Part shown: positions 10,831-20,774 of the stretch, in pieces
Numbering within the stretch: the first letter of the stretch is position 1
How the letters are laid out: each line of letters begins with the position of its first letter
Source: a virus
DNA: 20,774 bases
Reading direction: 5' to 3' (one strand)
IMG/VR virus record: IMGVR_UViG_3300021599_000216
Span: 1-20,774 of that record
Position numbers and translations under genes: made by a program
Notes under the pieces: generated by a model
What the model was told of the DNA's origin: nothing
Databases searched by the model: none
What the model saw: only the letters and a program-made list of their open reading frames with translations

Positions 10831-10836
10831 ATAGGG

Positions 10837-11013
10837 TCATCGCTTTGCTCTATCTGTATTTGTTTTGTCGCCACTTACACCCTTTTGTCCAAAACGTATA
10901 AGCTTTTCTTTGTCGCCAGATTTAGCTAATACAGCGTGTGATTTAGTAGGGTGGCTAGGCGTGGCTTTAGGTTTGTTATAACCAGAAAACGTTTCCTTAC
11001 CCTTCTTAATCAT
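10837..11013 (-). CDS. Small basic protein (58 aa), probably truncated
   Basis: This is a short gene missed by a 60-aa cutoff. The product begins MIKKGKETFSGYNKPKATPS, continues HPTKSHAVLAKSGDKEKLIRFGQKG and stops after DRAKR. The 'SGYNKP..TP.HPTKSH.V.AK.G.K.KLIRFG..G' pattern is a well-known small phage protein found next to the large terminase. Its usual version goes on for about 25-30 residues with a 'SFKARH..NI.KGK.SAAYWA' ending that is absent here. The start ATG overlaps the upstream stop (ATGA), and the stop lies 6 bases before the terminase ATG. Function is unknown. Confidence 0.7.
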   Translation of the reverse strand: MIKKGKETFSGYNKPKATPSHPTKSHAVLAKSGDKEKLIRFGQKGVSGDKTNTDRAKR

Positions 11014-11162
11014 TTCTTTTTAGCTGTCTTTGCAGACTCTTTAAAAGCTTTAGCTGTAGGTGCACCTTTAGATCCTACCTTACGCATCTTCTCGCCAGAA
11101 CCTTGAGCAATACGTTTTTTCTTTGCTGCGATGTTGGCATAAAGTCCAGTTTTAGTAGCCAC
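11010..11162 (-). CDS. Small basic phage protein (50 aa), GTG start
   Basis: This 50-aa Lys- and Ala-rich protein reads MATKTGLYANIAAKKKRIA, then QGSGEKMRKVGSKGAPTAKAF and KESAKTAKKK. The 'GLYANI.AK..RIA.GSGEKMR..G.KGAPTA.AF..SAKTAK' signature is one of the most conserved tiny proteins beside phage terminases. Its role is unknown and nucleic-acid binding is a guess from the charge. The start is a GTG at 11160-11162, since no ATG fits the conserved N-terminus. It overlaps the previous gene by 11 bases and the next gene by 4. Confidence 0.75.
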   Translation of the reverse strand: MATKTGLYANIAAKKKRIAQGSGEKMRKVGSKGAPTAKAFKESAKTAKKK

Positions 11163-11283
11163 TCTTCATTCCTTTTTTAGCTGGTTTAGCTGCTACTTTT
11201 TTACCTGACTTTTTAGCGTATTCTTTAGCTTCTTTCTTACCTTTTTCTGTGTAAGCAAATTTCTTTTTTCCGACCATTGGCAT
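11152..11283 (-). CDS. Small lysine-rich protein (43 aa)
   Basis: This 43-aa protein reads MPMVGKKKFAYTEKGKKEAK, then EYAKKSGKKVAAKPAKKG and MKSGY. It carries 16 lysines. The 'KKFAYT.KGKKEA..YAKK.GKK' block resembles small basic proteins found near the terminase genes of podoviruses and siphoviruses. Function is unknown. The second Met (11275-11277) is an alternative start. It follows the 120-aa gene after 10 bases and overlaps the next gene's GTG start, so these three tiny genes form a coupled set. Confidence 0.65.
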   Translation of the reverse strand: MPMVGKKKFAYTEKGKKEAKEYAKKSGKKVAAKPAKKGMKSGY

Positions 11284-11293
11284 AACTTTCCCT

Positions 11294-11656
11294 TTATCTA
11301 GATAACATTCTAATGAGTGAATTCAAATCCATAGGAGGTTGTCTGACAGACAAACCACCGCCTTGTGGTGCTACGTTAGTCATCGTATTGCCTAGTGGAT
11401 TTGTTTGTTGGTAGTACGGTACTGTTTGTGGATTAGACATAAAAGCATTTTGTCTAGAAAACTCATCCATTTGTTGTTGCATCATAAGTTGCTTTAATCT
11501 TGCAGCTTCAGCTTCTGTAAGGTTGCCCATGCCGCTAGACATTCCTTCCATTCCACCTTCCATAAGTCTTCTAGCTTCATTTTCTGTTAGCTGACCTACT
11601 CCAACATTTGATGGTGATGATTGTCTTAATTTCTCTAAATATTCTAGTAAGCCCAT
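11294..11656 (-). CDS. Hypothetical protein (120 aa), Met/Gln-rich
   Basis: This 120-aa protein starts MGLLEYLEKLRQSSPSNVGV. It has two related segments (QLTENEARRLMEGG at about 22-35 and NLTEAEAARLKQLM at about 45-58), a Gln- and Met-rich stretch, and ends PPMDLNSLIRMLSR. The internal near-repeat is visible by eye. I do not recognise a family. It sits between the small terminase and the tiny basic genes and may be virion-associated or packaging-associated by position. AGGATATTTTT is a weak ribosome-binding site. Confidence 0.6.
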   Translation of the reverse strand: MGLLEYLEKLRQSSPSNVGVGQLTENEARRLMEGGMEGMSSGMGNLTEAEAARLKQLMMQQQMDEFSRQNAFMSNPQTVPYYQQTNPLGNTMTNVAPQGGGLSVRQPPMDLNSLIRMLSR

Positions 11657-11704
11657 AAAAATATCCTATAAAAAATTTGGGTACTGCCGTTTTAAAAAAC
11701 CTAT

Positions 11705-11728
11705 AAAAACCTTTTCTGTACAAAAAGG
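11705..11728 (-). terminator. Possible weak intrinsic terminator after small terminase
   Basis: CCTTTT at 11710-11715 can pair with AAAAGG at 11723-11728 around a 7-base loop. Leftward transcription then meets five T residues (11705-11709). Only two G-C pairs are present, so it may be an attenuator. It lies just downstream of the small-terminase stop, in the 82-base gap before the 120-aa gene. Confidence 0.4.
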
Positions 11729-11738
11729 GGGTGGGGGT

Positions 11739-12200
11739 CTAATCTATTCCTGTAACAATCTTAACTTCTACAGGTGTTCCATCAGGGTTGCCACTAATCT
11801 CATGTTGTGATGTTTCTTTCCACTTGGCACGAGACTTCAACCAAAAGATCATGGCTGTGGTGTTGCCTTCTTTAGCTTGCTTAAACAAAGTCTCTGCTAC
11901 AGATGCGTTGGCTTCAATACGACCTTTGTCAAGCTCTTCTTTATAGTACTTGACAAGTGTATCATGTGATATGCCTAGTACGGATGCAATATCTTCGTGG
12001 CGTGTGCCTACTGTAGATAATGTGTAAACTTTAATTCGGGTGTCCGCATTTGGAAGGTGTGGGGGTCTTCCTTTTCCTACCTTGTTTTCTTCTGTCTCTA
12101 TAGCGTCTATAGGTAGATTGTCTACAGATATTAAGGCTTGCTTATCGTCTACCATAATATTGACAACATTGTCAACAGGGTTATTCAGTTCATTATTCAT
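11739..12200 (-). CDS. Terminase small subunit
   Basis: This 153-aa DNA-binding subunit would recognise the packaging site. After an Asn- and Asp-rich leader (about residues 1-35) comes GKGRPPHLPNADTRIKVYTL, then a helix-turn-helix, GTRHEDIASVLGISHDTLVKYYKEELDKG (about 63-91). After that comes AETLFKQAKEGNTTAMIFWLKSRAKWKE, a pattern strongly associated with small terminase and packaging proteins. It ends VEVKIVTGID. It is first in the leftward late block and is transcribed away from the 12201-12356 control region. The large terminase is separated from it by four small genes. Confidence 0.85.
   Translation of the reverse strand: MNNELNNPVDNVVNIMVDDKQALISVDNLPIDAIETEENKVGKGRPPHLPNADTRIKVYTLSTVGTRHEDIASVLGISHDTLVKYYKEELDKGRIEANASVAETLFKQAKEGNTTAMIFWLKSRAKWKETSQHEISGNPDGTPVEVKIVTGID
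12160..12175. promoter_or_regulatory. Perfect palindrome TTGACAA-CA-TTGTCAA inside small terminase gene
   Basis: Two 7-base halves are perfect inverted repeats separated by 2 bases. They are the same halves, in opposite order, as the palindrome at 12320-12335. The site lies in the 5' part of the small-terminase coding region, about 25-40 bases inside the start, where a bound repressor could block leftward transcription. Because it encodes part of VDNVVN it could be chance. Confidence 0.35.
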
Positions 12201-12230
12201 TTAATGCTTATTCCTTATATATATAACTTA

Positions 12231-12258
12231 CTTATATTCGTTTACAATTTATTTACAA
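12231..12258 (-). promoter_or_regulatory. Possible leftward promoter for the late block
   Basis: Read leftward, TTGTAA (12253-12258) and TATAAG (12231-12236) are 16 bases apart and lie 31 bases upstream of the small-terminase ATG. The match to sigma-70 consensus is moderate (4/6 and 5/6). The -35 element falls within the second TTTACAAT repeat, so a protein binding the repeats would cover it. Confidence 0.4.
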
Positions 12259-12279
12259 TTCTTTACAATCTTTTACAAT
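12241..12279 (+). repeat. Four phased direct repeats TTTACAAT
   Basis: TTTACAAT occurs at 12241-12248, 12252-12259, 12262-12269 and 12272-12279, with start-to-start spacing of 11, 10 and 10 bases, i.e. one DNA turn. All copies are exact. The array lies between the divergent small-terminase gene and the rightward island, next to the strong rightward promoter. Cooperative binding of a regulator, or an AT-rich bent or opening element, fits the phasing. The ligand is unknown. Confidence 0.7.
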
Positions 12280-12287
12280 AATAATAC

Positions 12288-12315
12288 TTGACAAGTTATT
12301 TAATGGGGATATGAT
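12288..12315 (+). promoter_or_regulatory. Strong rightward sigma-70 promoter for the small-gene island
   Basis: TTGACA (12288-12293) and TATGAT (12310-12315) are 16 bases apart. The expected start near 12322 falls inside the palindrome at 12320-12335. The first gene begins at 12357 after TAAGGAGTC. This should drive at least the DUF8033-like gene up to the terminator at 12596. Confidence 0.75.
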
Positions 12316-12319
12316 TACA

Positions 12320-12335
12320 TTGTCAATCTTGACAA
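12320..12335. promoter_or_regulatory. Operator-like palindrome over the transcription start
   Basis: TTGTCAA-TC-TTGACAA is a perfect 7-2-7 inverted repeat placed at the likely start site of the 12288 promoter, the ideal position for repression. The same half-site occurs in the divergent promoter region at 19956 and 20007 beside the Cro-like gene, so that regulator is a natural candidate. Part of the similarity comes from the TTGACA promoter element itself. Confidence 0.5.
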
Positions 12336-12356
12336 ATAACTTAAGGAGTCATACAA

Positions 12357-12578
12357 ATGAATCTAAACCCAATCCAAGCCAATCTAAACGAAGTTATCAC
12401 AGATGGAATGATTATACTATTCAGCTATAAAACACCCGTTGCAGTTAGAATAGGTCATAATGAATACTATAGAACATCTACCAAATGGAGTCAGACTACA
12501 TCTAGACATATAAATAAATGGCTCGATGGAGTTATTGCTACAGAAAAAGAACAATCTTACTTTGATAGTCTTATCTAG
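12357..12578 (+). CDS. Small phage protein (73 aa), DUF8033-like
   Basis: This is the first gene of the rightward island. The 73-aa product reads MNLNPIQANLNEVITDGM, then IILFSYKTPVAVRIGHNEYY and the C-terminal SQTTSRHINKWLDG. The combination 'LFSY.TPVA....G...Y.....S.TTS.HINKWL.G' recalls a small domain (DUF8033, as I remember it) found in early regions of phages and plasmids, with no known function. TAAGGAGTC is a good ribosome-binding site. It has its own promoter, with an operator-like palindrome, and is followed by a terminator, so it is a single-gene unit. That suggests early, tightly controlled expression. Confidence 0.75.
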   Translation: MNLNPIQANLNEVITDGMIILFSYKTPVAVRIGHNEYYRTSTKWSQTTSRHINKWLDGVIATEKEQSYFDSLI

Positions 12579-12595
12579 TATATAGATAATATATA

Positions 12596-12620
12596 GGGAG
12601 GTTTTTACAATCTCCCTTTT
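12596..12620 (+). terminator. Intrinsic terminator after first island gene
   Basis: GGGAGGTT (12596-12603) pairs with AATCTCCC (12609-12616), with one G-T wobble and a 5-base loop, followed by TTTT. It is a clear rho-independent terminator 17 bases after the first gene, separating it from the remaining island genes. Confidence 0.75.
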
Positions 12621-12641
12621 ATAACTACGATTAAATAAGAC

Positions 12642-12669
12642 TTGACAATTAAATAGACTTAATTAAACT
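12642..12669 (+). promoter_or_regulatory. Probable second rightward promoter
   Basis: A consensus TTGACA (12642-12647) and a weaker TAAACT (12664-12669), 16 bases apart, follow the terminator and precede the next gene by 30 bases. With a terminator just upstream, the downstream genes need such a promoter. The -10 match is only moderate. Confidence 0.5.
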
Positions 12670-12698
12670 ATATATACACACTATAAGGAGTTATTACT

Positions 12699-12845
12699 AT
12701 GTTATCCAATACAGAACTTAAAGAGATTAAACAACAGATTGACAAAGGCTTGACTTTATGTCTACCTCAATCTATATCTATTAAGCAATACGATAACATT
12801 ATTAAACAAATTGACAATTACATCAAAAAGGAGAGTTTACAATGA
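12699..12845 (+). CDS. Hypothetical protein (48 aa)
   Basis: This short gene with a TAAGGAGTTATTACT ribosome-binding site encodes 48 aa: MLSNTELKEIKQQIDKG, then LTLCLPQSISIKQYDNIIKQ, ending NYIKKESLQ. It is helical, charged and soluble, with no recognised domain. Two KQQID and KQID segments contain the TTGACAA string at DNA level. Its stop overlaps the next gene's ATG (ATGA), a sign that both are genuinely translated. It is the first gene after the second rightward promoter. Confidence 0.6.
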   Translation: MLSNTELKEIKQQIDKGLTLCLPQSISIKQYDNIIKQIDNYIKKESLQ

Positions 12846-13375
12846 TTAATACCAATATCAGATTCAATGGTTTTTATAACTCTATTCATTCAGATAATAT
12901 TGATCATGCAATAGAATCTTATTATACAGATGACAACGGGCTTTTTGACTATGACTCTATAGCCGATAACATAGACTATAAAACAATCCATAAGGATTAT
13001 ATAGAAGTCTTTACCGATGATTTTAAGTCATGGATTAAAGATAACTATGATCTTGACATAGATTTTAAGGACTTATTACTCAATAGCCCTCAATTTTATA
13101 ACTATTCAACCGATGTTATTAATTGCAATATATCAGATAAAGACAATTCCCTATTGATGATGACATTTAAACGTGATAAAGACTTTATATCCTATTTGGA
13201 AGATAGAACTACTTCTAGAAGTGGTTTTATATCTCATTATACCTTTGGAGAGGCTTTATCAAATAAAGATGACATTCTATCTGATTATATTCTAGAATAT
13301 CTTGTAAACAAGTTTGAATCTGATAATCTATTTATGTTGGATAACTATGACTTTATATATCAATCTTTACATTAA
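12842..13375 (+). CDS. Hypothetical acidic protein (177 aa), largest gene of the island
   Basis: This 177-aa protein is rich in Asp, Asn, Tyr and Ile and strongly acidic. It reads MINTNIRFNGFYNSIHSDNI, then DYDSIADNIDYKTIHKDY, DFKSWIKDNYDLDIDFKDLL and ends DNYDFIYQSLH. It has no signal peptide or membrane segment, and I recognise no family. AAGGAGAGTTTACA provides the ribosome-binding site, and the start is coupled to the 48-aa gene. Highly acidic small phage proteins can act as DNA mimics or host-protein inhibitors. That is only a possibility here. Confidence 0.7.
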   Translation: MINTNIRFNGFYNSIHSDNIDHAIESYYTDDNGLFDYDSIADNIDYKTIHKDYIEVFTDDFKSWIKDNYDLDIDFKDLLLNSPQFYNYSTDVINCNISDKDNSLLMMTFKRDKDFISYLEDRTTSRSGFISHYTFGEALSNKDDILSDYILEYLVNKFESDNLFMLDNYDFIYQSLH

Positions 13376-13387
13376 GGAGATAATGCA

Positions 13388-13474
13388 ATGAATAACTTAC
13401 TTAAAAACTTTTTAATCTTATTACTAGGCTTTACAAATTTCTATATGTTTTTACTTTTAATCTTATCTTATTAG
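13388..13474 (+). CDS. Single-span membrane peptide (28 aa)
   Basis: This tiny gene, with a TAAGGAGATAATGCA ribosome-binding site, encodes 28 aa: MNNLLKNFLILLLGFTNFYM and then a hydrophobic tail ending LILSY. Nearly all of it from residue 7 is one hydrophobic helix, so it should insert in the inner membrane. The spacing (12 bases after the previous gene, 11 before the next) and the strong ribosome-binding site argue that it is real. A role in membrane disturbance, superinfection control or host targeting is possible, but nothing in the sequence decides this. Confidence 0.55.
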   Translation: MNNLLKNFLILLLGFTNFYMFLLLILSY

Positions 13475-13485
13475 GAGGCTATAAA

Positions 13486-13731
13486 ATGATTAACGAAAAC
13501 TTTAGTATTGGTTATAACGAGGGATTAAACGCCCTTGAAAATATATCGCTTGTCAATGAAAACCCCGATCATGAAATTTTAGCGGGTCTTTTATCATCTA
13601 TTGCGAATTGCATATATTATTATGCACCTAGCGAAAAGGCTGCAAACGAGCTTTTTAAATTCGCTATGGACTATGCAAGGGAAGAAAACGCCAAAATAGG
13701 AATGATCTTACCAAAGGAGACATTAAAATGA
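13486..13731 (+). CDS. Hypothetical protein (81 aa)
   Basis: This 81-aa helical, acidic protein reads MINENFSIGYNEGLNALENI, then DHEILAGLLSSIANCIYYYA, KAANELFKFAMDYAREENAK and ends PKETLK. Its alternating charged and hydrophobic positions suggest a small helical bundle. I recognise no family. TTAGGAGGCTATAAA is a near-perfect ribosome-binding site. It overlaps the next gene by four bases (ATGA). The higher proportion of G and C in some stretches (e.g. AACGAGGG, GCCCTTG) resembles its island neighbours. Confidence 0.65.
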   Translation: MINENFSIGYNEGLNALENISLVNENPDHEILAGLLSSIANCIYYYAPSEKAANELFKFAMDYAREENAKIGMILPKETLK

Positions 13732-13973
13732 TTTTATCAGTATCAATTAACGCCTATCAATATGAAGACTTAACTTCACATGATGCAAAAAGAAAAGTTA
13801 TCTATTGGCTTGACAATGACCCACAAGAATACGAAAGGGAAGACGGAACTTTCGGTTATTCTTATTATAGTGATTTAAGCCAAGAAGACGAACATATAAT
13901 TATTGACCATTGTAATATGAATAATTATAGATTCGATAAGTATGGCAACCCTATACACCAATTAACACTTTAA
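13728..13973 (+). CDS. Hypothetical protein (81 aa)
   Basis: This 81-aa acidic protein reads MILSVSINAYQYEDLTSHDA, then KVIYWLDNDPQEYEREDG, a YSYYSDLSQEDEHIIIDHC stretch, and a C-terminus of YGNPIHQLTL. The alternation of 'YWLD..P.EYE.EDG' with a final 'DHC..N.Y.F...G.PI' looks like small early proteins of other phages, but I cannot name a family. It is coupled to the preceding gene by ATGA, and an AAAGGAGACATTAAA ribosome-binding site precedes its start. Confidence 0.65.
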   Translation: MILSVSINAYQYEDLTSHDAKRKVIYWLDNDPQEYEREDGTFGYSYYSDLSQEDEHIIIDHCNMNNYRFDKYGNPIHQLTL

Positions 13974-13983
13974 GGAGAATAAC

Positions 13984-14160
13984 ATGCAAGTAGAACTAGA
14001 CTATATTACAGAGGCTTTACACGCTATCGACCTCAATTTAGAAGACGTCAATAGAGGCATGACACCTAGCGGATACTTAACCATAAATTCTTATTTAGAA
14101 GACATGCGTTATAGACTATCCGAAATTACTACTGAAATATCAAATATGGAGATAACATAA
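13984..14160 (+). CDS. Hypothetical protein (58 aa)
   Basis: This short gene encodes 58 aa: MQVELDYITEALHAIDLNLE, then DVNRGMTPSGYLTINSYLED, ending EITTEISNMEIT. It is acidic and probably all helical, with heptad-like spacing of Leu and Ile that could form a coiled coil. TAAGGAGAATAAC is the ribosome-binding site. The stop TAA shares its last base with the next ATG (TAATG). No family is recognised. Confidence 0.6.
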   Translation: MQVELDYITEALHAIDLNLEDVNRGMTPSGYLTINSYLEDMRYRLSEITTEISNMEIT

Positions 14161-14459
14161 TGAGATTCGCTAGTAAACGTGATTTTATCAGTATGGCTCA
14201 ATTGTGGAAATATAAACCACAGGTAGAACTATACAAAATGACATTTAAACAATTAGAAAATGTATGGCTTACTTACAGGGAAACCAAAATGAATAGAACC
14301 GAACTCATTCAAAAAATACTCAATGCAAATCTTGACTTATGCCAAAACAATACAGAACTTAACGATTCTATGTTATATGACTTGCTTATGTATGGCTTCA
14401 AAGGTTTAGAAAAGATGACCATTGAAGAACTCAATACAGAATTGGAGAACTTATCATGA
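14160..14459 (+). CDS. Hypothetical protein (99 aa)
   Basis: This 99-aa protein has a basic N-terminus (MRFASKRDFISMAQLWKYKP) and an acidic helical C-terminus (LLMYGFKGLEKMTIEELNTE, LENLS). The middle has FKQLENVWLTYRETKMNRTELIQKIL. The end 'K.L.KMTIEEL...L' is a common helical cap in small phage proteins. I recognise no domain. It is coupled at both ends (TAATG at its start, ATGA at its stop), with a GGAG ribosome-binding site inside the preceding gene. Confidence 0.65.
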   Translation: MRFASKRDFISMAQLWKYKPQVELYKMTFKQLENVWLTYRETKMNRTELIQKILNANLDLCQNNTELNDSMLYDLLMYGFKGLEKMTIEELNTELENLS

Positions 14460-14617
14460 TTAAATATAAAGGAGATATTGCATCAATAGATAATTTAAGC
14501 GATGCTCTAGAATTATTTTCTAGGCATGATATTTTGGTAAAAATAACAAATAAAGCTAAAACCAATCCGTATGGAGATGAATTAAAAAAAGCATTTTTTA
14601 AGGATAATTTAAAATGA
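14456..14617 (+). CDS. Hypothetical protein (53 aa)
   Basis: This 53-aa product reads MIKYKGDIASIDNLSDALEL, then FSRHDILVKITNKAKTNPYG and DELKKAFFKDNLK. It is basic at the ends. The 'DI.SIDNLSDAL.LF..HDI' stretch suggests a small alpha/beta fold. No family is recognised. It overlaps both neighbours by four bases. The ribosome-binding site TTGGAGAACTTATC lies in the previous gene. Confidence 0.6.
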   Translation: MIKYKGDIASIDNLSDALELFSRHDILVKITNKAKTNPYGDELKKAFFKDNLK

Positions 14618-14775
14618 GTGACTTTACTTATTCTTATGAACCTGAAACCAAAAAGTTTGAACTATTTATAAATCATAACCTTATCTACTCATTCGTAGAT
14701 TGTGAGCCTATGACAGAAAATGAGGCTTATAACATGGCTGAAGACTTATATACAGAATATCATTCACACAAATAG
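14614..14775 (+). CDS. Hypothetical protein (53 aa)
   Basis: This 53-aa acidic product reads MSDFTYSYEPETKKFELFIN, then HNLIYSFVDCEPMTENEAYN and MAEDLYTEYHSHK. The 'SY.P.TK.FELFIN...IYS' start looks like a beta hairpin and the 'TENEAYNMAEDLYTEY' part like a helix. No family is recognised. The start is coupled to the previous gene (ATGA), with only a weak AAGGATAA ribosome-binding site. It ends nine bases before the next gene. Confidence 0.6.
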   Translation: MSDFTYSYEPETKKFELFINHNLIYSFVDCEPMTENEAYNMAEDLYTEYHSHK

Positions 14776-14784
14776 GAGATTAAA

Positions 14785-15000
14785 ATGACACAATATACTT
14801 ATGCACAGGTATGTTTACATTTAACTGAAATTTTACCTGATAATCCATATTTAGAATCTAAAATGTCTAAAATTGATTATTACCAAATAATTTTCAACAT
14901 AGCTGATAAAGCTATAAAAAAACTAAAATTTAATGAAGATTCAGAAAACTTATACGAAACCCTTGATGAATGGGTTAGTGTAAACAATATATCTATATAG
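14785..15000 (+). CDS. Hypothetical protein (71 aa)
   Basis: This 71-aa soluble acidic helical protein reads MTQYTYAQVCLHLTEILPDN, then YQIIFNIADKAIKKLKFNED and SENLYETLDEWVSVNNISI. I recognise no domain. It has a strong TAGGAGATTAAA ribosome-binding site that overlaps the previous stop. Its own stop is 10 bases before the next ATG. Confidence 0.65.
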   Translation: MTQYTYAQVCLHLTEILPDNPYLESKMSKIDYYQIIFNIADKAIKKLKFNEDSENLYETLDEWVSVNNISI

Positions 15001-15010
15001 GAGAGCTAAA

Positions 15011-15202
15011 ATGTCAATAGAATATGGAAATCTATGCCATATATCCGATTATTATAAAGATAGCGATAATGAAGGATTTGTTTATGGACTTGAATTAACA
15101 GACAATAAAAATTTTATGGATTACGAGTGTTTTTGGTTTAAATCTACTGAAAAACGTTTTGAGTTTATCAAACAACACAATATTATTTTAAAAGGAGACT
15201 AA
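15011..15202 (+). CDS. Hypothetical protein (63 aa)
   Basis: This 63-aa protein reads MSIEYGNLCHISDYYKDSDN, then VYGLELTDNKNFMDYECFWF and KSTEKRFEFIKQHNIILKGD. The alternation of short strands followed by 'W.KS.EKR..FI' suggests a compact beta-alpha fold. No named family is assigned. TAGGAGAGCTAAA is the ribosome-binding site. Confidence 0.65.
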   Translation: MSIEYGNLCHISDYYKDSDNEGFVYGLELTDNKNFMDYECFWFKSTEKRFEFIKQHNIILKGD

Positions 15203-15203
15203 A

Positions 15204-15383
15204 ATGTATGTTTTAAACACACAGGAACGCACCATAAAGCGTTTTTCTAACAAAGACCTATCTATATGGGTCAATGAGTTAATCAAGTATAATAGAAGCC
15301 TTAAAAGCTATCTATTTATGTCTACTAAAAAAGAAGCTACTAATTTTATTAAAAACCAATTAAAAAGGAACTTAAATGGATAG
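15204..15383 (+). CDS. Hypothetical basic protein (59 aa)
   Basis: This 59-aa Lys-rich product reads MYVLNTQERTIKRFSNKDL, then SIWVNELIKYNRSLKSYLFM and STKKEATNFIKNQLKRNLNG. It contrasts with the acidic neighbours. AAAGGAGACTAAA is a strong ribosome-binding site one base after the previous stop. Its 3' end overlaps the next gene by 8 bases. No domain is recognised. Confidence 0.6.
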   Translation: MYVLNTQERTIKRFSNKDLSIWVNELIKYNRSLKSYLFMSTKKEATNFIKNQLKRNLNG

Positions 15384-15548
15384 AGATCTAGAGAAGATTC
15401 TTGTAGACTTATTATTAGGGTTTGTTTTGCTAGGATTATTGACAATCCTATTTAAAGTAATTGAGTTTACCCTGAAACGATTATTTACGTTTTTTAGGTT
15501 TTGACATGCCTGCTTCAGTTTACCTTTTTTGGTGGTAGGTTTTTTCAT
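15372..15548 (-). CDS. Possible small basic ORF antisense to island end (58 codons)
   Basis: Leftward from ATG 15546-15548 a 58-codon frame begins MKKPTTKKGKLKQACQNLKN, Lys-rich like the small basic proteins beside the terminase. It lies directly downstream of the leftward terminator at 15558, where a read-through late transcript would begin. Its second half merely mirrors the 42-aa membrane gene on the other strand, and the ribosome-binding site is weak (GGA). It is probably non-coding or a shorter real peptide. Listed with low confidence. Confidence 0.2.
   Translation of the reverse strand: MKKPTTKKGKLKQACQNLKNVNNRFRVNSITLNRIVNNPSKTNPNNKSTRIFSRSLSI
15376..15504 (+). CDS. Single-span membrane peptide (42 aa), end of island
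   Basis: This 42-aa product has a charged start (MDRDLEKILVD), a long hydrophobic helix (LLLGFVLLGLLTILF, about residues 11-26) and a basic aromatic tail ending FTFFRF. It is an inner-membrane peptide with a probable N-out or N-in single span. AAAGGAACTTAA serves as the ribosome-binding site and it overlaps the previous gene by 8 bases. It is the last gene of the rightward island and converges on the leftward Q-region transcript. A holin-like or membrane-modifier role is possible but unproven. Confidence 0.55.
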   Translation: MDRDLEKILVDLLLGFVLLGLLTILFKVIEFTLKRLFTFFRF

Positions 15549-15557
15549 ATTTTATCC

Positions 15558-15588
15558 AAAAAAAAAAGCCCTTTATTTATAAGGGCTT
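15558..15588 (-). terminator. Strong leftward intrinsic terminator (tR'-like)
   Basis: AAGCCCTT (15566-15573) and AAGGGCTT (15581-15588) form a perfect 8-bp stem with a 7-base loop. In the leftward direction the stem runs straight into ten T residues (the A10 run at 15558-15567, partly within the stem). This is the end of the leftward operon and of the short transcript that starts near 15626. Confidence 0.9.
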
Positions 15589-15626
15589 AAATGTGCTACG
15601 GAGAGTATGGGCGAGACTATCCCAAC
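15558..15626 (-). ncRNA. Predicted ~69-nt terminated leader RNA (lambda 6S-like)
   Basis: A perfect consensus promoter (-10 at 15633-15638) should start leftward RNA at about 15626. The strong terminator ends it near 15558, giving about 69 nt with no ORF of note. It has a small GGG/CCC hairpin near its 5' end and the terminator hairpin at the 3' end. Placement directly after a Q-like gene mirrors lambda pR'-6S RNA-tR'. It could also act as an independent small RNA. Its existence is predicted from promoter plus terminator only. Confidence 0.6.
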
Positions 15627-15632
15627 AGGCGA

Positions 15633-15661
15633 ATTATATCATAGTTAAATACTCGTGTCAA
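15633..15661 (-). promoter_or_regulatory. Perfect consensus leftward promoter (pR'-like)
   Basis: Read leftward, TTGACA (15656-15661) and TATAAT (15633-15638) are exactly 17 bases apart. This is the strongest possible sigma-70 match in the window. It overlaps the last codons of the Q-like gene. A second -10-like hexamer, GATAGT (15616-15621), lies at about +6 to +11, where lambdoid late promoters carry a sigma-dependent pause element that Q needs. Confidence 0.8.
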
Positions 15662-15984
15662 GCGACTATACGCCTAGAAGCCATAGATAGCATGTTATCG
15701 AAAGCAAGACCTAATTGATACTCATAGTCATCGTATTTAGATGTCTTTAAGTATCTAGCGTATACCGCATCTTTCTGATGTTTGGGCAAACTGCTTATAA
15801 TTGCATCAATTGTTCTGACATTGGTTATATCCATCTCTGACACCATGTCTTCAAAAGCATCGCTAGTAGATTCACCACCGCTAATCATACCCAATGACTT
15901 GCTTGGATAGCCTAGCTTTGTGCTTGGTGCGTGCATCCATCTAGCCCAATCATCTAAAATCTGTTTAAGCCTATCTATGTGCAT
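15658..15984 (-). CDS. Q: Q-like late antitermination protein (108 aa)
   Basis: I place the start at ATG 15982-15984, not at the distal ATG 135 bases upstream. It has GAGGAAGCTA as ribosome-binding site and overlaps the preceding gene by only 14 bases. The product reads MHIDRLKQILDDWARWMHAP, then TKLGYPSKSLG, IDAIISSLPKHQKDAVYARYL and a C-terminal SMASRRIVA. 'LDDWARW' at the start, 'LGYPS', and the sigma-like 'V..AI..LP...R.A...RYL' helix pair resemble phage antitermination Q proteins (PF06530-type). A perfect promoter and a terminator follow at once, just as Q precedes pR' and tR' in lambda. The family call is by eye. It could also be an ArpU or RinA-type late regulator. Confidence 0.65.
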   Translation of the reverse strand: MHIDRLKQILDDWARWMHAPSTKLGYPSKSLGMISGGESTSDAFEDMVSEMDITNVRTIDAIISSLPKHQKDAVYARYLKTSKYDDYEYQLGLAFDNMLSMASRRIVA

Positions 15985-16318
15985 TAGCTTCCTCTTCAGT
16001 GTGAATATAAATGCCTTTGATCCTGTCGCTAAAGTCTGGCATAGGGTGAAATATGTTTTGTAATAAATTAACTTTAGGTTTAAAGTATCTGTATATTTTC
16101 TTTTGTCCCTGTTGTTCACGTTCTGTTGAATTTAACATGCCTAAATTTTTCATGTTTAATACAATGTATTGGATCTTTCTGTGTTCCATACCCATTTCTT
16201 CAGATAACTCTGCAATGGTTAAAGATTTATCACCTAACGCATCTAAAATTAAATTACGCATTTTTTCTATATGAACTAAACGACCTTTAACATTATATTC
16301 TCTAACTTTAGCTTCCAT
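15971..16318 (-). CDS. Winged-helix transcriptional regulator (115 aa)
   Basis: This 115-aa protein reads MEAKVREYNVKGRLVHIEKM, then RNLILDALGDKSLTIAELSE, EMGMEHRKIQYIVLNMKNLG and MLNSTEREQQGQKKIYRYFK. The helix - 'LTIAELSEEMGM..RKIQYIVLNMKNLGML' - wing (KKIYRYF) layout is that of a winged helix of the MarR or ArsR kind. The C-terminal 30 residues (FHPMPDFSDRIKGIYIHTEE) are probably a short extension. It lies between the nuclease-like gene and the Q-like gene, and its stop overlaps the Q start. It probably tunes early-to-late transcription, but the target is unknown. Confidence 0.7.
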   Translation of the reverse strand: MEAKVREYNVKGRLVHIEKMRNLILDALGDKSLTIAELSEEMGMEHRKIQYIVLNMKNLGMLNSTEREQQGQKKIYRYFKPKVNLLQNIFHPMPDFSDRIKGIYIHTEEEANAHR

Positions 16319-16326
16319 ACTTTTCC

Positions 16327-16641
16327 TTATGATACATCCATTACTTTACATTCCCACTTCCTGCCAGTCTTGACCCACCCATGAATATGTATTTTCATAC
16401 CACTCTTACGAACCGTTCCCACATACTCACTATCCGCAATCTTATGAGCCCTTGCTGACATGTTGCTAGCAGAGGTAGTTTGAACTGCAAGTATCTCACC
16501 ATCTTTAATAGCAAGCAAATCTATAAAGCCAAACATGTCCTGTCTTATTTTTGCAAAAGCGTTCCATCGTTCTGTAATAGCTACAAGGTATCCATCTGCT
16601 CTTAACTTCTTAAGGCTTAACTGCGTTGGGCTTGTCGCCAT
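16327..16641 (-). CDS. PD-(D/E)XK / resolvase-like phage protein (104 aa)
   Basis: This 104-aa protein starts MATSPTQLSLKKLRADGYLV and contains WNAFAKIRQDMFGFIDLLAI, GEILAVQTTSASNMSARAHK, and ends HGWVKTGRKWECKVMDVS. 'GFIDLLAI..GEILAVQ.TS' is laid out like the D...ExK core of small PD-(D/E)XK nucleases (VRR-NUC or Holliday resolvase-like). In this widespread phage family the final Lys position is replaced by Gln and Thr, so it may be a catalytically altered or structural relative. It overlaps the methylase 3' end by 32 bases. Recombination or repair context supports DNA binding. Confidence 0.6.
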   Translation of the reverse strand: MATSPTQLSLKKLRADGYLVAITERWNAFAKIRQDMFGFIDLLAIKDGEILAVQTTSASNMSARAHKIADSEYVGTVRKSGMKIHIHGWVKTGRKWECKVMDVS

Positions 16642-17200
16642 CTATTTCATTCCCCCATACATCCCAACCTTCAGACTTTTGTCTAGCAAATAATTCTATT
16701 CTAGGCAAATCACCACTATGTGCAACAATAATATCTTTAAATATTTTTGGCTTTTCACTATGTTTTCTTGAGTTTATTTCATATACAGCTTGCCCTTCAT
16801 CTACAACATTTATAATTGATTTGTTAATTCTAGGCAACTTACCTTTCGTTGCAAACAAAATATGTTCAGTTGCCCCTCTAAAATAATAACCTAATCCCAT
16901 TTCTTTATTAAGATTGCTATATAACTTTACCCAAGTAATAGTTTGTTTGTAATTAAAGCCCCAAGCATCACATAAATCATGTGCTTCTCTAACGAATGAA
17001 TTTGTATACCACATATATAAATGACAATTATTATCTGCAATATTTTGTATAGGCAATTTTTTAATATCATTTATATTCATTGTATCGTAATGATGATGAA
17101 CAGCACCATTACCCCAATTTTCTTTATAAGACCATGGTGGGTCTGCATAAATAATATTATATTTTTTATTTGGAAATGGTATGTAATTACTTGATTCCAT
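16610..17200 (-). CDS. MT-A70-type adenine DNA methylase (196 aa)
   Basis: The product reads MESSNYIPFPNKKYNIIYAD, then PPWSYKENWG. It shows a catalytic DPPW motif at residues 20-23, then CHLYMWYTNSFVREAHDLCD, WVKLYSNLNKEMGLGYYFRG, TEHILFATKGK, HSEKPKIFKDIIVAHSGDLP, RIELFARQKSEGWDVWGNE. The DPPW, 'GYYFRGATEHILF..KG' and 'HS.KP' blocks define MT-A70 N6-adenine methyltransferases of phages. It transfers methyl from SAM to adenine, often to shield phage DNA from restriction. An upstream ATG at 17231-17233 exists. I prefer 17198-17200, which limits overlap to 14 bases. No partner restriction enzyme is present, so it is an orphan methylase. Confidence 0.85.
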   Translation of the reverse strand: MESSNYIPFPNKKYNIIYADPPWSYKENWGNGAVHHHYDTMNINDIKKLPIQNIADNNCHLYMWYTNSFVREAHDLCDAWGFNYKQTITWVKLYSNLNKEMGLGYYFRGATEHILFATKGKLPRINKSIINVVDEGQAVYEINSRKHSEKPKIFKDIIVAHSGDLPRIELFARQKSEGWDVWGNEIDGDKPNAVKP

Positions 17201-17369
17201 CAAATTGACTTTCGTTAGGTTTAGATATGCCATCTATAAAACGTTTTTCTACTTCACCTGTAGACTTGTTTAATTCGTATTCGTAATTTTTTTTAAATAT
17301 TTTATTCCAGTTGTCTTCTGCTTCTTGTTCAGAAATTAACAATGGTCTTCTTCCAGAACCTTTACCCAA
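17187..17369 (-). CDS. Small phage protein (60 aa)
   Basis: This 60-aa protein reads MGKGSGRRPLLISEQEAEDN, then WNKIFKKNYEYELNKSTGEV and EKRFIDGISKPNESQFDGIK. The 'MGKGSGRRP....E.....NW..IF' start is shared by small phage proteins near nuclease and methylase genes. Function is unknown. It overlaps the YbcO-like gene by 8 bases and the methylase by 14. Confidence 0.6.
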   Translation of the reverse strand: MGKGSGRRPLLISEQEAEDNWNKIFKKNYEYELNKSTGEVEKRFIDGISKPNESQFDGIK

Positions 17370-17652
17370 TTTTAATTACCCCTCTATCAAATAACCAACC
17401 CACAGTTTTACGATGAGCTTGTTCCCATGCTTCTATTCTTTCTGCTCTGTCTAACTCTTTGTTGTTGTCTATCATATCATGACATTGATAACAAAGACTA
17501 GCGATTCTATAATCATGAGCCTTGATGCCTGTGCCTTTACCATCACGCTGTTGATTAGAATGACCTGCACAAACTGTTCCGTCTTGTCTGCCACACATAG
17601 CACATGGAAACTCACGAACCGCTTCTAGCAATTTCTTGCTACGATAATTCAT
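17362..17652 (-). CDS. YbcO-like (DUF1364) nuclease
   Basis: This 96-aa protein reads MNYRSKKLLEAVREFPCAMC, then GRQDGTVCAGHSNQQRDGKG, TGIKAHDYRIASLCYQCHDM, and a C-terminal AEWEQ-like helix ending TVGWLFDRGVIKIG. Cys17-x2-Cys20 and Cys54-x2-Cys57 could hold zinc. His31 (in AGHSN) and His46 (in AHD) are the expected catalytic or metal ligands. The 'C..C......AHSN....GKG...K.HD...A..C..CH...D' pattern is that of the YbcO/DUF1364 family of prophage HNH-like DNases. It follows the NinB pair, as expected in ninR-like recombination regions. Confidence 0.75.
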   Translation of the reverse strand: MNYRSKKLLEAVREFPCAMCGRQDGTVCAGHSNQQRDGKGTGIKAHDYRIASLCYQCHDMIDNNKELDRAERIEAWEQAHRKTVGWLFDRGVIKIG

Positions 17653-17737
17653 AAAAATACCTAATTAGTTTAGCAACGCCACCAACAAACCATACAATGC
17701 AAAATATAACTATGCCATCAATAATTGGTTGCCTCAT
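17639..17737 (-). CDS. Single-span membrane peptide (32 aa)
   Basis: This tiny gene has its ATG overlapping the NinB stop (ATGA) and its own stop 14 bases inside the YbcO-like gene. The 32-aa product reads MRQPIIDGIVIFCIVWFVGG, then VAKLIRYFYELS. Residues about 8-24 form one hydrophobic span. GGAG and GGGAG motifs precede the start. The tight coupling supports real translation. Function is unknown. A membrane peptide inside a recombination operon is unusual. Confidence 0.45.
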   Translation of the reverse strand: MRQPIIDGIVIFCIVWFVGGVAKLIRYFYELS

Positions 17738-18099
17738 AACTCCCAACTCCAACCAAGAGTAGAAGCCCAACGTTCACAGTTTTCTTGATACTCTGTCATT
17801 TCTTTTGTAGTGAGTTTTGTTGTTGACTTAACCAACTCCACAGGATTGCCAGCTATCTCTGTTTGGTAGCGAAGAAACTTATAGCCTAACAACTCATGAA
17901 CTGTGCTAGGATCTTCACCAATGTAATTAGCAATTGACCCATATAGCGACCACAGCCTTTCATTCTGTTCAAGTGACCTTACAACTTTTTCTTCACTAAT
18001 ATTCACACGCCACCTTTTAGTTAAATCAAGAGCTTTGATTTTTGTTATCAAGTTTTCGTAATTGTACTTCGTCAAAACGAACCGAATCATATTTGTCAT
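17734..18099 (-). CDS. ninB: NinB-like recombination protein
   Basis: This 121-aa protein starts MTNMIRFVLTKYNYENLITK and contains KRWRVNISEEKVVRSLEQNE, LWSLYGSIANYIGEDPSTVH, ELLGYKFL, KSTTKLTTKEMTEYQENCER, WASTLGWSW. 'RSLEQN..LW......A..........V...L...FL' and 'STTKL.T.EM.EY.E....WA...GW.W' match the NinB (DUF1367 or Orf/NinB-type) proteins that help RecA and annealing proteins load on single-stranded DNA. An AAGGATGG ribosome-binding site favours the 18099 start over 18090. Its first 74 bases overlap the 59-aa gene in another frame. Confidence 0.8.
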   Translation of the reverse strand: MTNMIRFVLTKYNYENLITKIKALDLTKRWRVNISEEKVVRSLEQNERLWSLYGSIANYIGEDPSTVHELLGYKFLRYQTEIAGNPVELVKSTTKLTTKEMTEYQENCERWASTLGWSWEL

Positions 18100-18205
18100 C
18101 CCATCCTTTAGATTTAAAAGTTACACCTTCTTTAGATGTTGCTTTGTATGTAGCATCTTCACCATACAACTTTTGAACATATTTTATAAACTCATTTATG
18201 GTCAT
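18026..18205 (-). CDS. Hypothetical protein (59 aa) overlapping NinB start
   Basis: This is a short gene with a strong AGGAAAGACC ribosome-binding site and ATGA coupling to the helicase stop. The 59-aa product reads MTINEFIKYVQKLYGEDATY, then KATSKEGVTFKSKGWDDKYD and SVRFDEVQLRKLDNKNQSS. It is charged and soluble, with no recognised family. Its last 74 bases are read in a second frame as the start of NinB, so the overlap region is double-coding if both are real. Confidence 0.6.
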   Translation of the reverse strand: MTINEFIKYVQKLYGEDATYKATSKEGVTFKSKGWDDKYDSVRFDEVQLRKLDNKNQSS

Positions 18206-19116
18206 GGTCTTTCCTTGTAACTTAAACCTTTTTTATCAAACCAAAAATTCCACTTACCTTCAACAGGATAATTACGTTGCTTTTGTAAATATACTACGCA
18301 ATCTGGAATACCTTTTAAATCTTCTGCTGTCTTGTCACCTGTTTCAATATCATACTCTTTCTTCTTATTGCGGAACACACAAATTATGTTATCACATAAA
18401 TTGCGAATATGCGAGCTGCCTAAAATATGAGTAGCATCTGGAACTACGTTTTCATCCGCCATCTTTCTAGTATGTGCCACCAAGAATACATGTATGTTTA
18501 AATCACGACACGTTGTAGCAAGTCTGTCTATAAAAAGCTTTTGTCTTTCATAATTGTCTTCAGAAATATCTGACATCTTCATAAGAGAATCAATCACAAA
18601 TACTTCTACACCTAGGACATGCTTACCCCAATACAATGTAGCAATCATATCTTCTGATGTGGTAGAGCCTGTTTGGTCATAAAGATATAACTTTTCTTTA
18701 GCTCGATCACAAAACTTTATTATAAACTCATCTGTAGGTTCTGATGATTTTAATGTTTGCTGAACCATACGAGCAAGAGTTAATACAGGTCTCATCTCTA
18801 AAGAAGCAATTAAGCATTTAGTATCTTGTTTCATTAAAGATAAAATAATTTGAGACAACCACATACTCTTACCATGCCCTGACACTCCTGTCAAAACAGT
18901 TAGTTCAGCAGGTCTTATTTTAAAGTCATCTTCCGTTTTAACAAAGCCCAACGATTTGCCAGAGTGTATTTCAGAATTAAAATATCGAACCACCGAGTCA
19001 GTAAAAACATCCGTACTCTTAACAAGAAATTCTGCATTTGCATGTTCACCTTTATAATATTCATTTATAATTTCCTTATTGACTGTTAATTTTTCTAATG
19101 CGTCACCTATATTCAT
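18202..19116 (-). CDS. Replicative DnaB-like helicase (RecA-fold, 304 aa)
   Basis: This is a hexameric 5'-3' helicase core for phage DNA replication. Walker A GVSGHGKS is at residues 77-84, after RPAELTVLTG. The catalytic 'ASLEMRP' strand is near 104-110, Walker B VFVIDSL at 172-178, sensor VAHTRK at 213-218, and a final KQRNYPVEGKWNFWFDKKGL with an arginine-finger-like position. At 304 aa it lacks the DnaB N-terminal primase-interacting domain and is similar to T7 gp4 helicase-half proteins and other phage AAA_25/DnaB_C helicases. It is coupled at both ends (ATGA with the O-like gene and with the 59-aa gene). No primase domain is visible. Confidence 0.85.
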   Translation of the reverse strand: MNIGDALEKLTVNKEIINEYYKGEHANAEFLVKSTDVFTDSVVRYFNSEIHSGKSLGFVKTEDDFKIRPAELTVLTGVSGHGKSMWLSQIILSLMKQDTKCLIASLEMRPVLTLARMVQQTLKSSEPTDEFIIKFCDRAKEKLYLYDQTGSTTSEDMIATLYWGKHVLGVEVFVIDSLMKMSDISEDNYERQKLFIDRLATTCRDLNIHVFLVAHTRKMADENVVPDATHILGSSHIRNLCDNIICVFRNKKKEYDIETGDKTAEDLKGIPDCVVYLQKQRNYPVEGKWNFWFDKKGLSYKERP

Positions 19117-19709
19117 TTAGCACCATCCCACGGATTCCTAACTTTTTGCAATTCATCTTCCCATCTTTCTTGATTAATGTATGTTAGTGGTGAAGGGTTA
19201 AATCCTTCTTTCCATGATTTAGTTTTACTCATCTCTTTAACATGGGTAATGATCTTATCTGCAATTTTATCTAAACCGTTTCTCTTCCATTTTGTTTCAC
19301 ATGGCTTACGACCTACTTTTCTATTACTTGGATACTCTTTCCAAAAATCATTAAATCTACTGACATGTATATCTGTCTCTCTCTCTGTCTCTGTCTCTGT
19401 AACCCCACTTTGCTTGCACGATGCTAGCATGATGCTATCATTATCAATAAGCCATTGATTTAATACAGATAAATGTTTATTCAATTCATCTTCTGACATT
19501 TGCAAGCGAAATGCTAGCGTTCTGCTATCTGGTAAATTTCCATCAACATCTTCTGATGCAATCAACCAAACATTTATTAAAACCCAAGTACTTTTACTAT
19601 CTTTTAATGCAAACCAATCTGGATTCTTTAATAGATCGTTATGCACTTTAATCCAAGGTGGACACCTATTGTTATAATGCTGAAATTTTTTCCAGTTTCT
19701 AGGCATCAT
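19113..19709 (-). CDS. O-like replication initiator (198 aa)
   Basis: The N-terminus MMPRNWKKFQHYNNRCPPWI, KVHNDLLKNPDWFALK and WVLINVWLIASEDVDGNLPD look like the winged-helix DNA-binding domain of phage replication proteins (O or DnaD-like). A low-complexity ETETERETD linker (residues ~115-125, encoded by a GTCTCT-type microsatellite) joins it to a C-terminal part: FNDFWKEYPSNRKVGRKPCE, TKWKRNGLDKI and FNPSPLTYINQERWED. That part resembles the helicase-loading region of O-like proteins. It directly precedes the helicase gene, matching the O-P or initiator-helicase arrangement. Iteron-like repeats inside the gene (19410-19530) suggest that the origin may lie here. Confidence 0.75.
   Translation of the reverse strand: MMPRNWKKFQHYNNRCPPWIKVHNDLLKNPDWFALKDSKSTWVLINVWLIASEDVDGNLPDSRTLAFRLQMSEDELNKHLSVLNQWLIDNDSIMLASCKQSGVTETETERETDIHVSRFNDFWKEYPSNRKVGRKPCETKWKRNGLDKIADKIITHVKEMSKTKSWKEGFNPSPLTYINQERWEDELQKVRNPWDGAK
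19372..19400. repeat. TCTCTG microsatellite in initiator linker
   Basis: TCTGTCTCTCTCTCTGTCTC followed by TGTCTCTGT forms a near-perfect short-unit repeat. It encodes the Thr-Glu linker of the O-like initiator. Such TETER linkers recur in phage initiators. Slippage in 3-base multiples would change linker length, and other changes would break the frame. Confidence 0.7.
19410..19530. repeat. Two iteron-like repeats inside the initiator gene
   Basis: ATGCTAGCATGATGCTATCA (19421-19440) and ATGCTAGCGTTCTGCTATCT (19511-19530) share 16 of 20 bases and are each preceded by a TTTGC..GC block (19410 and 19500). They are exactly 90 bases apart and in the same reading frame (coding for DSIMLA and DSRTLA). 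The first contains the 10-bp palindrome ATGCTAGCAT. In lambda the origin iterons lie inside gene O, so origin function is a plausible inference. Protein repeat is the alternative. Confidence 0.45.
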
Positions 19710-19710
19710 A

Positions 19711-19905
19711 CTATTCTCCTTGAGGAATAGTTTCAGATTGTCTACGCTTAACTAAAATCTCTTCAATTTGTTCTACACGCTTCTTTGGAATATCTTTTGC
19801 TGGGTCTTTAGCCCAATATTGAATAGCTTGAATAGATATATCTAAAGCATATGCCATCTTACGTCTTGAGTTATTAAAGTGTGCTACAGCCTCTGTAAAG
19901 TTCAT
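19711..19905 (-). CDS. Cro-like / YdaS-type helix-turn-helix regulator (64 aa)
   Basis: This 64-aa protein reads MNFTEAVAHFNNSRRKMAYA, then LDISIQAIQYWAKDPAKDIP and KKRVEQIEEILVKRRQSETI. 'KMAYALDISIQAIQYW....DIPKKRVEQIEEI' is the compact HTH of Cro and YdaS-type phage regulators ('..A..L.IS..A...W...IP..R...IE.'). It is first in the leftward early operon, with AAGGAGATTTAA as ribosome-binding site. Its promoter (19934-19962) lies back-to-back with the rightward promoter, the usual place for a Cro-like switch. No opposing CI-type repressor is seen in the window. Confidence 0.8.
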   Translation of the reverse strand: MNFTEAVAHFNNSRRKMAYALDISIQAIQYWAKDPAKDIPKKRVEQIEEILVKRRQSETIPQGE

Positions 19906-19933
19906 TTAAATCTCCTTATTGAAATGAATGGCG

Positions 19934-19962
19934 ACTATAACACTCAATTAAAATCTTGTCAA
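19934..19962 (-). promoter_or_regulatory. Leftward early promoter
   Basis: Read leftward, TTGACA (19957-19962) and TATAGT (19934-19939) are 17 bases apart, a near-consensus sigma-70 promoter 28 bases upstream of the Cro-like ATG. It should drive the replication operon through to the Q-like gene. The -35 lies in TTGTCAAC, the inverse of GTTGACAA in the rightward promoter. Confidence 0.8.
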
Positions 19963-20006
19963 CAACTATAAAAGTCGGATAAATACCCCCCCCATTAAAA
20001 TATTTG

Positions 20007-20035
20007 TTGACAATTTATTGAAGTAAGCGTATAGT
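20007..20035 (+). promoter_or_regulatory. Rightward early promoter
   Basis: TTGACA (20007-20012) and TATAGT (20030-20035) are 17 bases apart, matching the leftward promoter base for base in both hexamers. It lies 24 bases before the ATG of the 43-aa gene and should drive the ERF and exonuclease recombination operon. The -35 elements of the two promoters are 44 bases apart, with a C8 tract (19986-19993) between them. Confidence 0.8.
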
Positions 20036-20059
20036 GTGTTTTCAAGTTTAGGAGTAGAC

Positions 20060-20191
20060 ATGAATTTAGATAGACTTATGAGAATTATCACTAATGACAG
20101 GTTGCAAAAAAAGTTTACACAAAAGTTCTATTTTGTGGTAAAGTGGTTTTTAGTAATATTTTGGGGATATTTTTTATGGCACATTCTTTAA
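20060..20191 (+). CDS. Single-span membrane peptide (43 aa)
   Basis: This is the first gene of the rightward early operon. The 43-aa product reads MNLDRLMRIITNDRLQKKFT, then QKFYFVVKWFLVIFWGYFLW and HIL. It has a basic cytoplasmic N-terminal half and one aromatic-rich membrane span (about residues 24-43). TTTAGGAGTAGAC is the ribosome-binding site. It overlaps the start of the next gene by 16 bases. An early membrane peptide next to a control switch may act in superinfection exclusion or host modification, which is speculative. Confidence 0.6.
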   Translation: MNLDRLMRIITNDRLQKKFTQKFYFVVKWFLVIFWGYFLWHIL

Positions 20192-20340
20192 AACATATAT
20201 CAGTTATTCTTGCTGATCTTGTAAAAGAACTTAAAGAAGATAACGACAAATGGGAGAAAGCAAATGAGTCAACAACAACATTACGATCAAGTAATGATGG
20301 AAAAACATCAAAAGGAGAGCAAGATGAGCATACACAGTAA
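20176..20340 (+). CDS. Small hydrophilic helical protein (54 aa)
   Basis: I use ATG 20176-20178, preceded by GGGGATATTTTTT, rather than the in-frame ATG at 20143, which lies inside the 43-aa gene without a ribosome-binding site. The product reads MAHSLKHISVILADLVKELK, then EDNDKWEKANESTTTLRSSN and DGKTSKGEQDEHTQ. A short helix is followed by a disordered charged tail. Its 3' end overlaps the ERF gene. No family is recognised. Confidence 0.55.
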   Translation: MAHSLKHISVILADLVKELKEDNDKWEKANESTTTLRSSNDGKTSKGEQDEHTQ

Positions 20341-20743
20341 ATTAATGAAAGCAAGATTAAAGTTACAAACAGCAGACCTTAAAAAGTCTGGTCATAATAA
20401 ATTTGCGGGATACAAGTATTTTGAGTTAGGTGATTTCTTACCTACTATTCAAGAGATTTGTAATGAGGTGGGCATCTGTGGCACAGTAACATTTTATACA
20501 GACATAGCAATTCTTACTATTACAGACATGGATGATGCTACACAATTTATTGAGTTTAAATGTCCTATGTCAAGTGCAGCTTTAAAAGGTTGCCATGACG
20601 TTCAAAATCTAGGTGCAGTTCAAACTTATTTGCGTAGATATTTATGGACTAATGCTTTTGAAATTGTAGAGCATGATGCTATTGACGCTAGTGCAGGTGC
20701 TGTTATTAAGATGAAAGATACTAAAGCAGAGGACTTTATCTAA
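20324..20743 (+). CDS. ERF-family single-strand annealing protein
   Basis: This phage recombinase anneals complementary single strands exposed by an exonuclease. The product from ATG 20324-20326 is 139 aa. It shows 'KLMKARLKLQTADLKKSGHN', KFAGYKYFELGDFLPTIQEI, CNEVGICGTVTFYTDIAILT, CPMSSAALKGCHDVQNLGAV and QTYLRRYLWTNAFEIVEHDA. 'GYKYFELGDFLP' and 'Q..G...TYL.RY....AF' are classic ERF motifs. AAAGGAGAGCAAG supports this start. An in-frame ATG at 20264, also with a GGGAG site, would add 20 residues unlike the family. The next gene starts on its last base (TAATG). Confidence 0.85.
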   Translation: MSIHSKLMKARLKLQTADLKKSGHNKFAGYKYFELGDFLPTIQEICNEVGICGTVTFYTDIAILTITDMDDATQFIEFKCPMSSAALKGCHDVQNLGAVQTYLRRYLWTNAFEIVEHDAIDASAGAVIKMKDTKAEDFI

Positions 20744-20774
20744 TGGAACAACGGTCAGAAGAGTGGTTTCAAGC
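20743..20774 (+). CDS. YqaJ-type exonuclease, first 10 codons only
   Basis: The frame opens MEQRSEEWFQA and is cut by the window end. 'QRSEEWFQAR' is the conserved N-terminal motif of YqaJ-like viral exonucleases (lambda-exonuclease fold), which degrade one strand to feed the ERF annealing protein. Its position directly after ERF, coupled by TAATG, fits an exonuclease-annealase pair. Identity rests on ten residues plus context. Confidence 0.7.
   Translation, partial: MEQRSEEWFQ

Follow-up and report, generated by a model that had tools for sequence, protein, structure and literature searches.

A stretch of viral DNA of 20,774 nucleotides (IMG/VR record IMGVR_UViG_3300021599_000216, analysed at its full length and called the window below) carries at the end of its leftward early operon a gene for a 108-aa Q-like protein, which runs directly into a consensus promoter, a short leader and an intrinsic terminator. 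This Q-promoter-leader-terminator arrangement is real and widely conserved among related phages, and late genes lie downstream of it. We put the probability that the module switches on late genes by antitermination, as in lambda and phage 21, at roughly 80%, antitermination being the step that we infer.

The Q-like ORF (15984..15658, minus strand, 108 codons) closes the leftward early operon, which also holds an MT-A70 methyltransferase gene and a winged-helix gene, and its TGA stop codon is located within the TTGACA of the promoter. The early region encodes P22_Cro-like, replication initiator, DnaB-like helicase, NinB, DUF968/YbcO-like nuclease and Erf-like proteins. The late genes run leftward from 12200 and comprise the small and large terminase subunits, the SU10-type portal and capsid, and the tail genes, among which an 825-aa glycine-rich repeat protein (760-3237, minus strand) is probably a tail fibre or similar. 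An earlier note, made from the sequence alone, had called the phage non-lambdoid; this description suits the capsid and portal but not the early region, whose P22_Cro-, NinB-, DUF968/YbcO- and Erf-like genes are lambdoid.

The late structural operon starts with the small terminase gene (12200..11739, minus strand; phrog_309, E = 1.8e-23). A separate strong promoter for this gene was rejected, as no strong leftward promoter was found for it and the strongest promoters nearby mostly face the opposite way. The terminator is separated from the terminase genes by a convergent block of approximately 12 small genes on the plus strand (12357..15383, about 3 kb). Strong ribosome-binding sites are frequent in such blocks, with GGAG preceding 45 of 64 convergent-block genes versus 39 of 281 genes on the Q strand. 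The interval 12205-12356, which parts the block from the small terminase gene, contains TTGTCAA/TTGACAA palindromes and repeated TTGTAAA, which are perhaps operators or a packaging site. The first ORF past the terminator (15548..15372, minus strand), starting within about 20 nt of it, is the remnant of a DUF6496 gene with about 11 codons kept; related phages have the whole gene at this place, and an intact relative matches PF20106. Because the convergent block separates the terminator from the terminase genes, the lambda order Q-pR'-6S-tR' proposed earlier is followed in the window only as far as tR'.

The promoter (15661..15633, minus strand) consists of a -35 TTGACA at 15661-15656 and a -10 TATAAT at 15638-15633, separated by a 17-nt spacer with TATG before the -10, and has its predicted +1 at G15626. 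It was the sole 12/12 promoter of the window, where base shuffles lead one to expect 0.05 (the scan was also run on 10000-20774 separately), and no other strong promoter in the window has a terminator within 160 nt downstream. A 12/12 promoter with a 17- or 18-nt spacer was found at the same site in all 80 fetched IMG/VR loci encoding a protein 74-100% identical to the 108-aa product. The reverse search, which used only the -10 and the leader, recovered 67 contigs; TTGACA was present in every one and the Q end in 66, the remaining contig being cut off by its own end. This conservation across relatives rules out a chance promoter and bears out the earlier observation of a perfect TTGACA-17-TATAAT leftward promoter at the end of the Q gene.

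Pairwise differences were computed over 55 distinct sequences. Known Q sites of the lambda/21 type are located in the promoter spacer, between -35 and -10. The mean pairwise difference was 0.172 for 17-nt spacers and 0.382 for 18-nt spacers; the latter is about the rate of the third codon positions of the Q gene (0.352) and is not as a spacer-located Q site predicts. Most of the 18-nt spacers retain the TATG beside the -10, which is also an extended -10 motif, as well as an AT box at about -25..-22. By the same measure, the predicted initial transcribed region +1..+30 (15626..15597, minus strand) differed by 0.111, the level of the first codon positions (0.109). Its conservation is sharply bounded, beginning at about +1 and stopping at +30, with values of 0.37 for the six bases after the -10 and 0.456 for +31..+38.

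Within this region, the element CTCTCCGTA (+22..+30; 15605..15597, minus strand) is kept in nearly all relatives. In an MW202481-like group, an insertion of approximately 16 nt shifts CTCTCCGTA from the start, and the element is kept regardless. A sigma pause or a terminator does not account for this element, whose distance to the start is variable. The hexamer GATAGT (+6..+11; 15621..15616, minus strand), which the earlier note had likened to the Q-dependent pause element of lambdoid late promoters, is present and its surroundings are strongly conserved, but a -10-like hexamer as good occurs in 26% of random 15-mers from the window and the signal is weaker still in the second clade described below, so that a pause role is only possible. 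A conserved 5' hairpin is likewise possible in the window's clade (TGGG/CCCA, +3..+19; 15624..15608, minus strand), where 98% of cells are paired but covariation is seen in one pair only; in the second clade, the shuffle control was not exceeded. Folding z-scores of the leader were weak except in the L050 group (-4.6), and a search of Rfam found no known RNA. A conserved peptide encoded antisense to the leader was rejected on inspection by eye, since neither the start codon nor the frame is preserved.

The intrinsic terminator (15588..15566, minus strand) is a stem followed by a T run. The distance from the predicted start to the end of the stem is 61 nt, and about 67-69 nt if the U tail is counted, in agreement with the terminated leader of about 69 nt noted before. 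Terminators vary in sequence among relatives and are sometimes in tandem, and the stem and U tract are kept in most.

The arrangement extends to a second clade, represented by 112 contigs found by terminator sequence, with Q proteins about 55% identical to that of the window. The Q-like protein was upstream of the module in 79 of the 80 contigs examined from this set. The promoters are of the types TTGAAC, TTGCAC, TTGAAA or TTGACT with TATAAT, the initial transcribed region is of the type TTGGACAACTCCTGTCC, and CTCTCCGTA is kept as CTCTCTCCGT, which lies in the terminator loop, the invariance of its core being no evidence in this set because it was fixed by the search pattern. On two long second-clade contigs, small genes come next after the module on its strand, then terminase, portal and capsid genes, and the convergent block is absent. 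In four contigs (L200, L287, L298 and L341), the exact junction of the Q stop codon and the promoter is occupied by methyltransferase-like genes, which are of three kinds and leave the module intact. This junction may be a hot spot for insertion, and the final bases of Q seem to flank the inserted gene on either side in L287 and L341. More distantly, EBPR podovirus 1 (Q identity 38%) has Q, TTGACA-17-CAGAAT, a leader and a terminator with TerS directly after. Phages of the Venkman (L205) type and L161-L187 end their early operon with a Q homologue but have late genes on the opposite strand and no pR'-like module adjoining Q, and no strong module of this kind was found elsewhere in Venkman. Control coliphages with known Q also have short leaders behind Q (57 nt in HK97, 41 nt in SE10).

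Its conservation makes a role of the leader's own probable. Tentatively, and at odds well short of even, we regard the pR' leader as a functional RNA with a 5' hairpin and a fixed CUCUCCGUA, which would serve either as a trans-acting sRNA or as a feature for Q loading through the nascent RNA or the early transcribed DNA, not through a spacer site. Taken further, the promoter might serve chiefly to make a regulatory RNA, some 65 nt long and made up of the 5' hairpin, a single-stranded CUCUCCGUA and the terminator, with Q read-through secondary or absent. The first-codon-position conservation of +1..+30 with its sharp borders and the retention of CTCTCCGTA at a changed distance would suit such an RNA, and so would the Shiga phages, in which, according to a passage in PMC8065619 citing Sy et al. 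2020, a short RNA from pR' to tR' is made without Q and is regulatory. By comparison, a regulatory role of the window leader is suggested by its conservation alone, and no target was found: pairing with ribosome-binding sites in the convergent block, which was the one target class tried, looked suggestive in the window but was rejected on the wider test, in which GGAGA given GGAG was not significantly enriched (P = 0.07), G003 gave 0/10 and the second clade lacked the block. This explanation would also leave the late genes with no promoter, and it sits poorly with the presence of Q upstream in essentially all cases and with the late genes coming straight after the module in the second clade; we consider it improbable.

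Still less probable is a terminator that merely closes the early operon, with the promoter driving the next small gene by leaky read-through and antitermination unregulated. The early operon does stop at Q, and the next ORF is close behind the terminator; however, a 12/12 promoter just before the terminator ill fits the end of an operon, what the window has left of the next gene is a remnant, with the promoter and leader intact, and the conserved leader would be left unaccounted for.

The 108-aa protein is probably a remote relative of PF06530, the phage-21 Q family (PMC7171158), below the curated cut-off. In single-sequence family searches, the window protein had no family above the cut-off. 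The PF06530 profile matched 10 of 26 relatives of the window Q (best E = 2e-4); it also matched L200 (1.3e-5), L191 (3e-5) and Venkman (5e-4), each time at the correct gene, the scores of Q relatives being at most 20.3 bits versus a curated cut-off of 26. A profile-profile comparison between the window Q group and ten coliphage Qs gave P = 1.5e-4, and with larger alignments the score was 25-29 versus at most 14.8 for column-shuffled controls; the similarity to phage 21 Q covers the N-terminal half. The PF03589 (lambda Q) profile had no match in the window and seven related records, and homology to lambda Q was rejected. The PF06323 (phage 82 Q) profile did not match either, a result that is uninformative because its control sequences gave no match. 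The family call made earlier by eye is therefore retained for a Q-like protein remotely related to phage 21 Q, through matches in relatives and not in the window protein itself, and dropped for lambda Q.

The structure prediction, of moderate confidence (pLDDT 77), gave a helical model, and sigma-E region 4 was among its weak, non-significant Foldseek matches. A PDB sequence search using the Q profile found no match, and genome contigs searched for Q relatives yielded none. A relative is annotated as 'antitermination protein Q' in MW202481 and another as antitermination-like in Venkman, and one annotated relative belongs to a cultured OM43 methylophage. The Sigma70_r4_2 profile weakly matched 12 of the 26 relatives, and this, with the Foldseek matches, could point to a sigma-region-4-like activator or repressor of the promoter in place of an antiterminator, but phage 21 Q carries a similar sigma-R4-like HTH (PMC6606751), a consensus promoter needs no activator and a terminator would be pointless for a repressor alone, so that this explanation is very unlikely.

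Under an antitermination switch modelled on lambda and phage 21 (PMC6606751), host sigma-70 polymerase would start constitutively at about 15626 and stop about 65 nt on at the terminator. Late in infection, the Q-like protein expressed from the last early gene would load on polymerase in the vicinity of the promoter, with a pause inside the conserved first 30 nt as the perhaps likeliest place. Polymerase carrying Q would then read through the leader terminator and those beyond it and transcribe the terminase, capsid and tail genes. In the window's clade, read-through would cross the 3-kb opposed block antisense and may help to silence its genes; such late silencing of the convergent block is plausible as a by-product. 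The switch is likely in view of the order conserved in divergent clades, the module kept past insertions, the late genes on its strand in the second clade, the relation to PF06530 and the weak sigma-region-4-like signal, the short leaders of the control coliphages and the lack of a strong promoter of the terminase gene's own. The below-cut-off score of the window Q, the variable 18-nt spacers, the intervening block and Venkman without the module count against it.

The proposed switch resembles phage 21 Q and pR' (PMC6606751, PMC7171158) in the position of the gene after a nin-like region, the promoter and short terminated leader behind Q and, as a weak signal, the sigma-R4-like HTH. It differs in that the window Q has 108 aa versus 162, in that the window lacks TGAGCA-type repeats, and in the combination of variable 18-nt spacers with a conserved +1..+30. 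With lambda it shares the order, the orientation, the constitutive-looking promoter and the early terminator ahead of the late genes, whereas the leader is about 65 nt versus about 194 nt in lambda and, in the window's clade, is followed by the convergent block. By its description, GafZ of the Caulobacter gene transfer agent is also comparable, as an antiterminator with a predicted sigma-like HTH that works on the promoter driving a phage-like late cluster; it differs in having its site between -35 and -10 (PMC11150451).

A search of published papers found no description of the promoter-leader module; the Q-like gene itself had already been annotated in two public genomes. The finding would take the lambda/21 late switch into a group of aquatic podoviruses that is abundant and for the most part uncultured, and whose Q has just 108 aa. 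The conserved, bounded leader beside a variable spacer would provide a natural test of Q loading, and also of whether an independent function is general among terminated pR' RNAs.
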